Positions 14,508-21,158 of a DNA stretch of 30,172 bases are shown one piece after another (position 1 is the first letter of the stretch; every line of letters begins with the position of its first letter). The translations under genes and the position numbers were made by a program. The DNA lies in IMG/VR virus record IMGVR_UViG_3300046467_000952, positions 1 through 30,172 of that record; one strand, given 5' to 3'. The notes under the pieces are model-generated. The model saw only the letters and a program-made list of their open reading frames with translations, did no database searches and was not told the origin of the DNA. This DNA is from a virus.

Positions 14508-14912
14508 TTAAACATTTTCAGATATTTTTTCTTTAAGTTTTTCATATTGTTTTTTAAGTTTAACGTAATTATCCATTAATTCTTCAATGTTATATGTTAG
14601 ATTGCCTTCCAGTTTATCTATACCCACATATTCTTTAAACTCTTTTAGTATTTTTTTATATCTCTGTTCGAGTGTTTTGTCGTATTTAACCCAATAATCA
14701 AAATTTCGTATTGCATGTAATACCGTAGCGTGGGATTTCCCCAGATCTTTACCGATATGTACTAATGAGAATTTAGTATAGTCTTTTAGTATTTTATAAT
14801 ATATACCTCTTGTCTCTACGAATTCCCTTTTTCTAGATTTAATTGTTTCTAAGTCCTTTAGATCAATACTTGTATTTCTATGTATAATTACTTTTAATTT
14901 ATTTTTTATCAT
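14508..14912 (-). CDS. Stand-alone DnaA domain IV-like DNA-binding protein
   Basis: A 134-aa protein. The segment VHIGKDLGKSHATVLHAIRN (about residues 50-70) matches the signature of DnaA domain IV, (I/V)G-x-x-x-G-x-(S/D)H-(S/A)TV-x-HA, the helix-turn-helix that contacts DnaA boxes. There is no AAA+ ATPase part; the rest is Lys-rich with a C-terminal coiled coil (YVKLKKQYEKLKEKI). It might bind a phage origin, recruit or compete with host DnaA, or act as a repressor. It sits between the replication genes and the terminase. The fold is well supported, the role is open. Confidence 0.75.
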   Translation of the reverse strand: MIKNKLKVIIHRNTSIDLKDLETIKSRKREFVETRGIYYKILKDYTKFSLVHIGKDLGKSHATVLHAIRNFDYWVKYDKTLEQRYKKILKEFKEYVGIDKLEGNLTYNIEELMDNYVKLKKQYEKLKEKISENV

Positions 14913-15120: not shown

Positions 15121-16145
15121 GTTAAGGTATCTCGAACAACATACTCATTTAATTCTATTTCTTTATTTATGAAGTATTGCTCAAAAACCTTAATCCCGTA
15201 TTCTAGTTTGTTTTTTCCTGATTTATAAAAAGACTCTGCACAGTCGTAAATGCCCAAGTCTCCTGTAGATTTATCTATAACAAAAAAATAAAAATCTTTA
15301 AAATCTGTTTTAAATAAATTACAGTAAATATATAACTGTACATCGTAACTATATTTTTTTGCCGACCACTTAAATGCTTTTAAATCAGAGGTTGTTTTTA
15401 AATCTGCTAAAAAATCTACACCTAAAACATCTGCCTTAGCTCTAAATGGATAACCGTGTAATATACCGAAACCGGGTTTTTCAAACTCCGCGTCTCTTGT
15501 AAATTCTTGCCATAATTCATTTTGTTGTAAAGCGTCTACTGTATACATAGCTTTATCATATTCTTTTCTTGTAAAAACAAATTGGTCTGACCCTACTTCT
15601 TTCACCTTATCTTTATATTTTTTTGTTACTGCTGATTGTACTTCTACTATATGACATAAGGTTTCTAACTTTTTTGGTTCTAATGCGGCTAAATGGATAA
15701 GTCTTCCTGTTTTAAAAGCGGGGCTATCTGATTTAAAATTTAAACTTCTTGCATAACTTTTAGGAGACTCAATTAAATTTTTAATTGCAGAGCTACTCAA
15801 TGCGTACTTCCCTAATTCTCCATAATAAAAACTATCGTCATACATCTTTTCTATTAAAACCTTTTTATTGTATACCTCTCCATTGAGTAATTCTATTTTT
15901 TCTAATCGGTCTTTCTTTGCGTGAATACTTTTCATTTCAGGAATGGATATAAAACACGTAGTGTTTGAATTATAGCTAGGCGATAAGTTGGTTAGTAACG
16001 CTTCTATTTCATGAGGTTTAGAAAATTCAAAACTATCCCCTTCTAAAATTATTTTTACTCCATCCTTTGCCCAATTTCTAAAATTTATTTTAGGGGTCAT
16101 AAACGTTATGTTTTTCCATTTAGGATTCTTATTTACTACTTTCAT
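15117..16145 (-). CDS. RecE-like PD-(D/E)XK exonuclease
   Basis: A 342-aa protein. Residues 115-300 carry the RecE/exodeoxyribonuclease VIII-type nuclease: LSSSAIKNLIESPKSY, GRLIHLAALEP (His151), FRAKADV (Asp239), ADLKTT (Asp248-x-Lys250) and DVQLYIY (Gln270, Tyr274). These are the metal and phosphate contacts of the PD-(D/E)XK fold. It would resect duplex DNA ends for recombination or replication. The first ~110 residues look like an extra small domain (beta-strand rich, no motif recognised). No obvious single-strand annealing partner is in the window. Overlaps mazG by 17 bases. Confidence 0.8.
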   Translation of the reverse strand: MKVVNKNPKWKNITFMTPKINFRNWAKDGVKIILEGDSFEFSKPHEIEALLTNLSPSYNSNTTCFISIPEMKSIHAKKDRLEKIELLNGEVYNKKVLIEKMYDDSFYYGELGKYALSSSAIKNLIESPKSYARSLNFKSDSPAFKTGRLIHLAALEPKKLETLCHIVEVQSAVTKKYKDKVKEVGSDQFVFTRKEYDKAMYTVDALQQNELWQEFTRDAEFEKPGFGILHGYPFRAKADVLGVDFLADLKTTSDLKAFKWSAKKYSYDVQLYIYCNLFKTDFKDFYFFVIDKSTGDLGIYDCAESFYKSGKNKLEYGIKVFEQYFINKEIELNEYVVRDTLT

Positions 16146-16428
16146 CTTTTACAAATGTTTTATTTATTATTTTTCCCTTTCTATTTTTTATCTCGTTATA
16201 CGCTGATATTACACAATCCTCAACTTTTAGATCATAAAAATAGCAAAGATTTGTTAACACTATTATCATGTCTCCTACCGCATCTTTTACTTCTTCCTTG
16301 TTATCTTTTAGTATAGCTTCCGCTAATTCGCCATGTTCTTCTACAAGTTTTATTAATTGGGTTTGTGCATTCCCTTTATCTAATATTCCTTTTTCTGCTG
16401 CCCAATGTAAAATTTTATCATATATCAT
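16129..16428 (-). CDS. mazG: MazG-like nucleotide pyrophosphohydrolase
   Basis: A 99-aa all-alpha protein. KLVEEHGELAEAILK followed by EVKDAVGDMIIVLTN is the EExxE...ExxD metal-binding signature of MazG/dUTPase-2-type enzymes, which hydrolyse (d)NTPs to monophosphates. Length fits the single-domain form. It sits directly behind the thymidylate-synthase-family gene with a 4-base overlap, so both probably shape the nucleotide pool of the infected cell. Confidence 0.85.
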   Translation of the reverse strand: MIYDKILHWAAEKGILDKGNAQTQLIKLVEEHGELAEAILKDNKEEVKDAVGDMIIVLTNLCYFYDLKVEDCVISAYNEIKNRKGKIINKTFVKDESSK

Positions 16429-17201
16429 AATATTACTTCTGGTTTTAAATGTTCTACATACTTATAATTAGTCAATTGAAATTCTTCTGCATTAAAATCT
16501 GTAAAGGTTGATACATTAGTTAGACGAGGAAGACTTAGATATTTATTAGATAAATATTGTTCAATTAAATTCATGTGTTCGGTATATATATGGGTACTCG
16601 CGGCATTTATAATTACTTGGCCAGCTGGTATGTTTAATTCTTTTGCTATTGCGCTACAGATTATTGCATACATACCCATGTCATACGGGAGCCCTATAAA
16701 CAAATCAAGACTCCTCATTGTTACCACTATATTTACTTTGCTTGTAATTAAAACTTGAAATGAATAATGACAGGGGGGTAACGCCATATATTTTAAATCA
16801 TTCGGGTTCCAAAAGGTTATGACATGTCTTCTGCTGCTTCTGTTTTTTTTAATATCTCTTATTAGGTTTCTTGTTTGATTAATCCCGTTAAAATCTATCA
16901 ACTGTTTCCCGTAAACCGGCCCTAGCTCCCCGTATTTATCTGCCCATTTATCCCAGATCTTTACACCTCTTTTATTCAACCAATTAATGTTAGTTCTTCC
17001 TTCGAGCATCCACTGTGTTTCTAGGCCCATTGTTTTAGGAAAGACCTTCCTTGCTGTTATGATCGGAAATCCTTCTTCAAGATTTGCTTGAATCTGTTTA
17101 CCAATTATTTGACGGGTATCGCCGTTTCTCCCTGTTATTTTATGTCCATGATAAGCAACGTCTTTTAAATGGTTTTGATAAAAAAATTCAAACTGATTCA
17201 T
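16425..17201 (-). CDS. Thymidylate synthase family enzyme, possibly dCMP-specific
   Basis: A 258-aa protein with family motifs: Glu61 (GLETQWML), IWDKWADKYGELGPVYGKQ (82-100), catalytic Cys144 in LPPCHY, RSLDLFIGLPYD (163-174) and STHIYTEH (His204, Tyr206). It would methylate, or hydroxymethylate, a pyrimidine nucleotide with methylene-tetrahydrofolate. The residue equivalent to E. coli Asn177, which selects dUMP, is Asp174 here (LPYD instead of LPFN). Asp at this place is known in T4 dCMP hydroxymethylase and in dCMP-preferring variants, so dCMP may be the substrate. Next to DUF6378 and mazG genes. Family membership is certain; substrate is inferred. Confidence 0.9.
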   Translation of the reverse strand: MNQFEFFYQNHLKDVAYHGHKITGRNGDTRQIIGKQIQANLEEGFPIITARKVFPKTMGLETQWMLEGRTNINWLNKRGVKIWDKWADKYGELGPVYGKQLIDFNGINQTRNLIRDIKKNRSSRRHVITFWNPNDLKYMALPPCHYSFQVLITSKVNIVVTMRSLDLFIGLPYDMGMYAIICSAIAKELNIPAGQVIINAASTHIYTEHMNLIEQYLSNKYLSLPRLTNVSTFTDFNAEEFQLTNYKYVEHLKPEVIL

Positions 17202-17470
17202 TATTCCCCTTCTTCTAATTCATTTAACGAAGCAATATAAGCAGCGGCATCTAATAAGTTATCTTCTTTATGAGAATACGCTTCTCTTGCGAATTTCATT
17301 GCAATCATAACTATATGCACATCTCTACTTGTAATTTCTTTCTGGGTTATTAATGAAGCAATGTCTGCACATCTTTGCATACACTCCTGCATAGGCCCAT
17401 ACATTCTCTCTTTCTCCTGAGATCTTTCGTTAATTATCTTATTTGCTTCTAATAATATATTTTTTGACAT
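17201..17470 (-). CDS. DUF6378-like protein
   Basis: An 89-aa helical protein from the ATG at 17468-17470: MSKNILLEANKIINERSQEK, then RMYGPMQECMQRCADIASLI and DAAAYIASL. The pattern of an ILxEAxxII...R...YG opening with a late LxDAAxYxxL helix is that of DUF6378 proteins in phages, often found near nucleotide metabolism genes. A GTG start at 17509 would add 13 residues. It overlaps the thymidylate-synthase-like gene by one base. Confidence 0.65.
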   Translation of the reverse strand: MSKNILLEANKIINERSQEKERMYGPMQECMQRCADIASLITQKEITSRDVHIVMIAMKFAREAYSHKEDNLLDAAAYIASLNELEEGE

Positions 17471-17512
17471 ATTTAATTCAATTAAACATTTATTAATTAT
17501 TGCTTCCACTTA

Positions 17513-17880: not shown

Positions 17881-18268
17881 ACCATATTTTTTTTAATTTA
17901 TTATATACTGTCCCTACAAAACAAGGACTACAGTTTGTTATTTTTTGCTTGTCACTAAAAACTCTGTTATAGATCCCTAAAATTTTTTCTGGTTGAGGAA
18001 TTTGACTTTCTTCTTTTGTAAAGACTTGATCTAAAAAAACAAATTCTTCCTCTGTTAATAGTTTGGGTTTTACGAAAGGGAAGATATCGTTTAGTCTCTT
18101 CCGCCTCTTATCACAACCGCAATCTTTGTCTAAAGCGGTTGAAACCGTATCAACCATTTTTTTTATCCCCGTTGCTTTTGTAAATTTTTCAACTGAATCC
18201 CCAAACCCTTTTGATATCATTTTTTGTTGGTACTCGAAGTTTGCTTTAAATTTCTTATAATTTGTCAT
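17867..18268 (-). CDS. Hypothetical Cys-containing protein (133 aa)
   Basis: Starts MTNYKKFKANFEYQQKMISK. A DCGCDKRRKRLNDIFPFVKP motif follows a helical N-terminus, and NCSPCFVGTVYNKL lies near the C-terminus. Two Cys pairs could bind zinc or iron-sulphur. I recall CGC-x-KR motifs of this kind in marine Bacteroidetes phages next to the sigma factor gene, but no function is known to me. Overlaps the sigma factor gene by 14 bases. Confidence 0.55.
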   Translation of the reverse strand: MTNYKKFKANFEYQQKMISKGFGDSVEKFTKATGIKKMVDTVSTALDKDCGCDKRRKRLNDIFPFVKPKLLTEEEFVFLDQVFTKEESQIPQPEKILGIYNRVFSDKQKITNCSPCFVGTVYNKLKKIWYEYK

Positions 18269-18797
18269 AATCTTCGTTTTTATAATCCTCGTAGTCTTCA
18301 GATAGTTTGTCCTTAATAATATTCTTCGCGTTCTTCAAGGAATTAAAAATACTAACCCAGCTTATGGTTGTTTCTTTTGCTATTTTTCTTATACTCATTC
18401 CAGAATCCCTGTATAATATAAATAATTTTTTATCATACCAATGCCAATTTTCTATTTCTTTATCCATTTTTTGACATATTTTGTTATAAGCCTCTTGCTC
18501 TGCGAGCTCTGATCTGTGTTTTATTTGTAGTAAACCGTCGTCTATTGATGTTTTTTTAACTTTTCTTTTAGAATTATAATACATGTAATATGTTGTACGG
18601 AGAGTAAAATACATATATCCTTTACTAATAGCCCCGTCCTTAATAACTTTTTTTGGGTTTGCGTATTTATATAAAATTAAATAACTTTCCTGAACAATGT
18701 CTTCTGCATAATCGTATTCTCCGAAACCATTTACAACCCTAATCCACTCTTTATGTTGTTTTGCTGCTATCGCTAACCAGTCCGCTCCCTCTCCCAT
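18255..18797 (-). CDS. RNA polymerase sigma-70 family factor
   Basis: A 180-aa protein. YDYAEDIVQESYLILYKYAN (about 28-47) matches sigma region 2, the helix that binds core polymerase and melts the -10 box. DSGMSIRKIAKETTISWVSI and FNSLKNAKNIIKDKL (about 130-165) match the region 4 helix-turn-helix. No region 1.1 or 3, so it resembles small ECF-type or phage sigma factors. It could redirect host polymerase to phage promoters; the repeated TATTATA elements in this window are the obvious candidates. An anti-sigma gene was not found. Overlaps both neighbours. Confidence 0.8.
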   Translation of the reverse strand: MGEGADWLAIAAKQHKEWIRVVNGFGEYDYAEDIVQESYLILYKYANPKKVIKDGAISKGYMYFTLRTTYYMYYNSKRKVKKTSIDDGLLQIKHRSELAEQEAYNKICQKMDKEIENWHWYDKKLFILYRDSGMSIRKIAKETTISWVSIFNSLKNAKNIIKDKLSEDYEDYKNEDYDKL

Positions 18798-20759: not shown

Positions 20760-21158
20760 CTAAGCACCTTCAAAAGAATCCATAGATTCTATTTTGTTTT
20801 TATATATACTTATCATTTCTTCTAATTCATAACTTTCAAATTTAACTATTTCTTTTGATCTATTTGATAAGTCTAAACTTATATCATTACCTAAGTATAA
20901 AGAATATTTATATTGTTCCCCTGATTTAAAAACATTACAAGCTACACACTGTGCATTTACGTTTTCTTCATCCCACCTCGTGCTATAATATTTTCTACTA
21001 ATAAAATGACCTGCTTGAATTTTTTTCCAATGCAACCTCTCCCCACACGTAACACATCTACAGTACCCGTATTTATCGGCATCTCTTAATCTTATATATT
21101 TAGAAAAAATATTATCAAGTTTAATTATTAATTTTTTTCTAGTTAACTTCTTAGACAT
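20760..21158 (-). CDS. NinG/Rap-like recombination nuclease
   Basis: A 132-aa protein. CRCVTCGERLHWKKIQAGHF (Cys35-x-x-Cys38, His51) and NVNAQCVACNVFKSG (Cys71-x-x-Cys74-Asn75) are the zinc and HNH-type motifs of lambda NinG (Rap), which cuts branched DNA during recombination. The GHFISRKYYSTRWDEENVNA stretch is particularly diagnostic. Together with the RecE-like enzyme it gives the phage a small recombination set. It lies in the first unit behind the Bacteroidetes-type promoter. Shorter than lambda NinG (204 aa). Confidence 0.85.
   Translation of the reverse strand: MSKKLTRKKLIIKLDNIFSKYIRLRDADKYGYCRCVTCGERLHWKKIQAGHFISRKYYSTRWDEENVNAQCVACNVFKSGEQYKYSLYLGNDISLDLSNRSKEIVKFESYELEEMISIYKNKIESMDSFEGA

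Follow-up and report, generated by a model that had tools for sequence, protein, structure and literature searches.

A predicted dCMP C5-methyltransferase in a conserved viral gene cassette with DUF6378 and MazG

Introduction

Which pyrimidine nucleotide does a phage enzyme of the thymidylate synthase (TS) family use when the asparagine that recognizes uracil is replaced by aspartate, and what does it make? The question is raised by a gene in a 30,172-nucleotide viral sequence (IMG/VR record IMGVR_UViG_3300046467_000952; hereafter the window, i.e. the whole stretch of DNA analysed). The original prediction was that this enzyme prefers dCMP and that, with the adjacent MazG and DUF6378 genes, it could make methyl- or hydroxymethyl-dCMP for a modified phage genome. 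To our knowledge, full replacement of cytosine by 5-methylcytosine (5mC) is documented in few phages, XP12 being the standard case. We conclude that the gene is quite probably a dCMP C5-methyltransferase which, together with MazG, would supply 5-methyl-dCTP for phage DNA containing 5mC and so protect it from restriction. The earlier interpretation appears right in outline and is sharpened here to dCMP methylation.

Results

A thymidylate synthase fold with aspartate at the selector position

The TS-family ORF encodes 258 amino acids and matches the Pfam Thymidylat_synt family (PF00303, E = 1.1e-70); NCBIfam labels the protein as a thymidylate synthase, and no second TS gene was found in the 30-kb virus record. 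It is encoded on the minus strand, which the original prediction left unsaid. MazG and DUF6378 flank it directly, as originally noted, with start and stop codons overlapping at both junctions (Table 1).

Table 1. Positions of the genes and diagnostic residues in the window
Feature	Coordinates	Strand	Evidence
TS-family gene with Asp177 (E. coli numbering), predicted dCMP C5-methyltransferase	16425..17201	-	PF00303, model, residues
Asp174 codon, counterpart of E. coli Asn177	16680..16682	-	Alignments; GAC here, GAT/GAC in relatives
Leu141-Pro-Pro-Cys144, Leu three before the catalytic Cys (Asp in T4/SPO1 hydroxymethylases)	16770..16781	-	
DUF6378 gene, conserved upstream partner	17201..17509	-	PF19905 E=1.9e-14, alignment, four-helix model, linkage
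MazG-like nucleotide pyrophosphohydrolase gene	16129..16428	-	PF03819 E=2.9e-6, alignment, linkage

The protein includes RSLDLFIGLPYD, and the alignments agree in placing its Asp174 at the position of Asn177 in E. coli ThyA. The six other catalytic residues named in the original prediction all align with their E. coli counterparts (Glu61 with Glu58, Cys144 with Cys146, Arg163 with Arg166, Asp166 with Asp169, His204 with His207 and Tyr206 with Tyr209). Trp80, Trp83, Tyr94, Arg126/127, His147 and Ser167 (E. coli numbers, as used from here on) are also conserved, while in the alignment to ThyA Gln165 is replaced by Met and Asp205 by Ser. An AlphaFold model built with 36 relatives has a pLDDT of 95.9, and Foldseek superimposes it on E. 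coli TS with TM 0.93–0.95. The PF00303 fold and the catalytic Glu, Cys, Arg, His and Tyr of a thymidylate synthase are present; Asn177 is not. Comparison with T4 gp42, proposed alongside that with ThyA as a check, showed that Asp177 is shared with gp42.

The aspartate is conserved throughout a clade

Most of the 41 loci of the clade to which the window gene belongs were recovered with peptide patterns that leave out the Asp position. Every clade member found by this Asp-blind search has Asp177, and the next nearest TS genes have no more than 41% identity. Asp177, His147, Met165, Leu143, Pro92 and Trp83 are each present in 41/41 clade loci. The two nearest relatives (86% identity) both retain the Asp, and dN/dS values of ∼0.07 and ∼0.13 against them indicate purifying selection. 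Across relatives, the selector codon is either GAC or GAT, a synonymous change. Since Asp is found at all 41 loci, with synonymous codon changes and a dN/dS as low as ∼0.07, its presence is not due to chance: Asp177 is a genuine and not an isolated substitution.

A maximum-likelihood tree places the window gene inside an Asp-only clade of 39 rows with a support of 98. Mapping the Asp label onto this tree requires five changes, at least three of which are forced by well-supported branches; Asp177 arose more than once. Asp at the selector position is common in viruses, with at least 120 pattern-scan matches. Within the genome contigs collection, none of 19 pattern hits encodes a close homologue, and a clade-specific DNA pattern gave no exact match.

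DUF6378, TS and MazG form a fixed cassette

DUF6378 lies directly upstream of the TS gene in 40/40 testable clade loci and MazG directly downstream in 40/40; in the two loci that seem to deviate, the contig stops 2 bases from the gene, which leaves 40 testable loci on each side. The surroundings of the cassette vary, with Terminase_3 in some clade phages, Terminase_6N in others, and differing recombination genes. Such variation around a constant core hints at joint movement of the three genes, and the cassette occurs in many uncultured viruses. We found no prior description of the cassette in the open-access literature on DUF6378 or on MazG with modified cytosine.

The MazG protein of the window matches PF01503 as well as PF03819 and carries the metal-binding EExxE...ExxD motif, which is invariant in the alignment. 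For DUF6378, comparison with relatives points to the ATG at 17470 as the likely start, and a four-helix structure was predicted with moderate confidence (one of five models was good). The idea that DUF6378 is a second MazG-like all-alpha pyrophosphatase gained no support: hhalign gave no match between DUF6378 and the MazG profile, and a comparison with the PDB, with one of the five models good, gave no confident fold match. NCBIfam has no model for DUF6378, and the PHROG families that match it carry the name ‘phosphofructokinase’, apparently a misannotation.

Asp177 is associated with MazG among viral TS genes

IMG/VR was scanned with one motif ending in Asp or Asn, and the resulting genes were pooled with the loci from the Asp-blind search and dereplicated at 70% identity. 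Among the matches listed, 44/61 Asp177 genes have MazG at a distance of up to 1 kb, as against 0/85 Asn177 genes (Fisher p = 1e-23); for DUF6378 the corresponding counts are 27/61 and 0/85. The MazG profile behind these 1-kb counts was built from the clade described above, and neighbours were scored on the strand of the TS gene only. Pfam assignments are independent of the clade-built profile and so remove the concern about it, the loci still being those among the matches listed. By this measure, the next gene downstream of an Asp177 TS is most often MazG (36/59), with 26 matches to PRA-PH, 8/59 to dCMP deaminase and 3 to dUTPase. Downstream of Asn177 TS genes, DHFR comes first (6/60), and MazG is absent from the 25 commonest Pfam families of the 60 neighbours listed.

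A separate Asp clade of 11 tree rows also has MazG downstream, and the recurrence of MazG beside separate Asp lineages would be difficult to account for if the two genes did not work together. A functional link between Asp177 TS and MazG is therefore supported. Together with the cassette, this association among the matches listed bears out the proposed link to MazG and DUF6378, and it lends weight to a putative role in DNA modification.

In phage Phi NF-1 (L329:2699-3801), a TS gene with Asn177 directly follows one for a MazG-like pyrophosphatase (PF03819, E = 0.0011), so the Asp177–MazG rule is not absolute.

Active-site residues point to methylation rather than hydroxymethylation

The published signature of the T4 hydroxymethylase consists of an acidic residue (Asp or Glu) three positions ahead of the catalytic Cys, Ser or Thr two positions ahead of Tyr94, and absence of the C-terminal tail (PMC6400193). 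The window enzyme shares with this type the Asp at the pyrimidine selector, but in place of the published Asp145 and Ser94 it has Leu143 and Pro92 (41/41 clade loci each), and it retains the TS tail (...KPEVIL). Among the matches listed, Leu143 is found in 34/36 Asp177 genes with MazG outside the clade, as in 41/41 inside it, and Asn or Asp is frequent at this position in Asp177 genes without MazG. As cited in PMC8670742, N177D/N229D mutants of true TS make 5-methyl-dCMP (Hardy and Nalivaika 1992; Liu and Santi 1992), and engineered TS with this change comes to prefer dCMP over dUMP. These mutants lend support to the predicted preference for dCMP and, with the absence of the hydroxymethylase signature, favour methylation. 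Of the two products originally envisaged, methyl-dCMP is thus strengthened by the retained tail, Leu and Pro, and hydroxymethyl-dCMP is weakened.

The alternative that the gene encodes a dCMP hydroxymethylase like T4 gp42, leading to 5-hydroxymethylcytosine DNA, is unlikely, but several observations fit it. The window protein and gp42 share Asp177, Met165, Ser205 and the catalytic residues, and the common Met165 and Ser205 would count against a methylase. Methylation makes dihydrofolate, which DHFR recycles; a hydroxymethylase needs no DHFR. Among the matches listed, DHFR was found near 2/62 Asp177 and 27/96 Asn177 loci, a scarcity that counts against methylation and that a hydroxymethylase would explain more simply. 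This comparison is confounded, as host DHFR could serve and the Asn177 phages are larger; relatives of XP12 do carry DHFR. Against a hydroxymethylase, gp42 has Asp143, Ser92, Val83 and no tail where the window enzyme has Leu, Pro, Trp and a tail, and SPO1 gp29, like gp42, has Asp three residues before the Cys and lacks the tail. No glycosyl- or carbamoyltransferase family occurs among the listed Pfam matches of the clade loci (15 single-member families not shown), and the window ORFs scanned yielded no sugar- or group-transfer enzyme, which is what one would expect were 5mC the final product.

Retention of the tail and of all other catalytic residues, and the NCBIfam name, would also suit a conventional thymidylate synthase that continues to use dUMP despite its Asp177. 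Such an enzyme is decidedly improbable, as the clade is invariant for Asp177, this residue is linked to MazG, and the same Asn177Asp change flips the preference of engineered TS to dCMP (PMC8670742). E. coli ThyA and the TS of Rhizobium phage RHph_Y68 resemble the window protein in fold (TM ∼0.94), in 32–39% identity and in the other catalytic residues. The window protein differs from them in having Asp for Asn177 and Met for Gln165, and its partner is MazG instead of DHFR. Rhizobium phages were the best named matches, and the resulting RL38JI lead was dropped because those TS genes carry Asn177.

Comparison with phages containing modified cytosine

In XP12 DNA, 5mC stands for all cytosines (PMC7653180, PMC9206674). 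Likeness to XP12 was judged via its relatives AXL1 and AAT-1; a short probe from pieces of L089 was used solely for locating Pamexvirus-type records, and the residues given here were read from the records themselves. Like the window, AXL1 and AAT-1 combine the TS fold, Asp177, a TS-like tail (...EVIE in theirs) and a position 143 other than Asp with an adjoining pyrophosphohydrolase, so that the window has the features of the XP12 type: Asp177, a TS tail without the hydroxymethylase signature and a neighbouring pyrophosphohydrolase. In both phages an annotated nucleotide pyrophosphohydrolase gene directly precedes the TS gene, and that of AXL1 matches PF01503, as does the window MazG. The two phages differ from the window in carrying dCMP deaminase and DHFR within ∼1 kb after the TS gene and in lacking DUF6378; neither dCMP deaminase nor DHFR gave a Pfam match in the window ORFs scanned. 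Their TS genes belong to a distant lineage with Asn143, Pro147, Phe83 and insertions, and their genomes are ∼57–64 kb. Judged from these records, an Asp177 TS and a MazG-superfamily pyrophosphohydrolase are also paired in the known 5mC lineage, on a distant TS branch. The window gene is predicted to bring the chemistry of XP12 to a different branch of the TS tree, within an invariable DUF6378–TS–MazG cassette.

The TS genes of Stenotrophomonas phage AXL1 (L336:1616-4276) and Pseudomonas phage AAT-1 (L335:2695-5795) are annotated as ordinary thymidylate synthases and are probably dCMP methylases. The DNA of AXL1 is refractory to most restriction enzymes whose sites contain G/C (PMC9206674).

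In extracts of the MetaGPA study (PMC8670742), Asp177 and the co-occurrence of TS with PF01503 were already tied to modified cytosine; the TS of the modified contigs resembles that of the window in both respects. The same extracts flag position 147 as differing in modified contigs, whereas the window clade keeps His147, and they make no mention of DUF6378. Uncultured Votkovvirus MedDCM-OCT-S28-C10 (AP013540) likewise encodes an Asp177 TS and a PF01503 pyrophosphohydrolase in one operon, but its TS belongs to another subclade with Phe165 and Tyr147, and the adjoining genes are annotated as dTMP kinase and dCMP deaminase.

A cytosine-first route in which 5-methyl-dCMP is deaminated to dTMP, leaving DNA unmodified, would account for the dCMP deaminase beside other Asp177 TS genes (8/59 among the matches listed) and in XP12 relatives, but it is very improbable here: a scan for dCMP deaminase gave none among the window ORFs covered and one among 108 clade-neighbour ORFs, and XP12 keeps 5mC in its DNA although its relatives carry the deaminase (PMC7653180).

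Roseobacter phages RDJL Phi 1 and 2, together with the locus L062, have an Asp177 TS with Pro at 147 beside a deoxycytidylate deaminase. Modified cytosine is likely in RDJL Phi 1 and 2.

Discussion

A proposed route to 5-methylcytosine

In the dCMP methylation that we favour, Asp177 would make the TS-fold enzyme use dCMP, and the retained residues suggest that the one-carbon unit of methylene-THF and then the folate hydride would be transferred to it, giving 5-methyl-dCMP and dihydrofolate. MazG, from its linkage to the TS gene, probably hydrolyses dCTP to dCMP, which would supply the substrate and lower the competing unmodified dCTP; human DCTPP1 is a dCTPase of the MazG superfamily (PMC4491611). 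Kinases, probably those of the host, would raise 5-methyl-dCMP to 5-methyl-dCTP; none was found in the window. Replacement of dCTP by 5-methyl-dCTP in phage DNA would then protect it from restriction, with DUF6378 acting as a conserved partner. Human DCTPP1 also hydrolyses 5-methyl-dCTP, and MazG would therefore need to discriminate between the two nucleotides.

More tentatively, with the chances slightly against it, a mobile DUF6378–dCMP methyltransferase–MazG module might have given small phages of several unrelated backbones 5mC genomes independently of the XP12 lineage, DUF6378 being a new factor controlling the dCTP/5-methyl-dCTP pool. If the cassette does serve dCMP methylation, 5mC genomes would be common among uncultured viruses, and a sequence rule would separate dCMP methylases, hydroxymethylases and thymidylate synthases. 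Routine ‘thymidylate synthase’ labels could then be corrected, and DUF6378 would gain a testable role.

The phage carrying the cassette

The virus contig may be incomplete. Its portal resembles that of Nonlabens phages P12024S/L (36% identity) and its terminase those of Flavobacterium phages; these two similarities give hints of the host.

Three further minus-strand genes were noted. A small protein (14508-14912) contains the C-terminal DNA-binding domain of bacterial DnaA (PF08299, E = 4.6e-11), and the neighbour ORFs scanned at seven clade loci include another six such proteins; it could be a replication initiator of the phage, binding to DnaA boxes. A sigma-70-like protein (18255-18797), a candidate phage sigma factor, weakly matches the Bacteroidetes sigma family TIGR02985 at a score below the cut-off. 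A NinG-type recombination protein is encoded at 20760-21158 (PF05766, E = 8.5e-14), and several clade loci encode NinG too.
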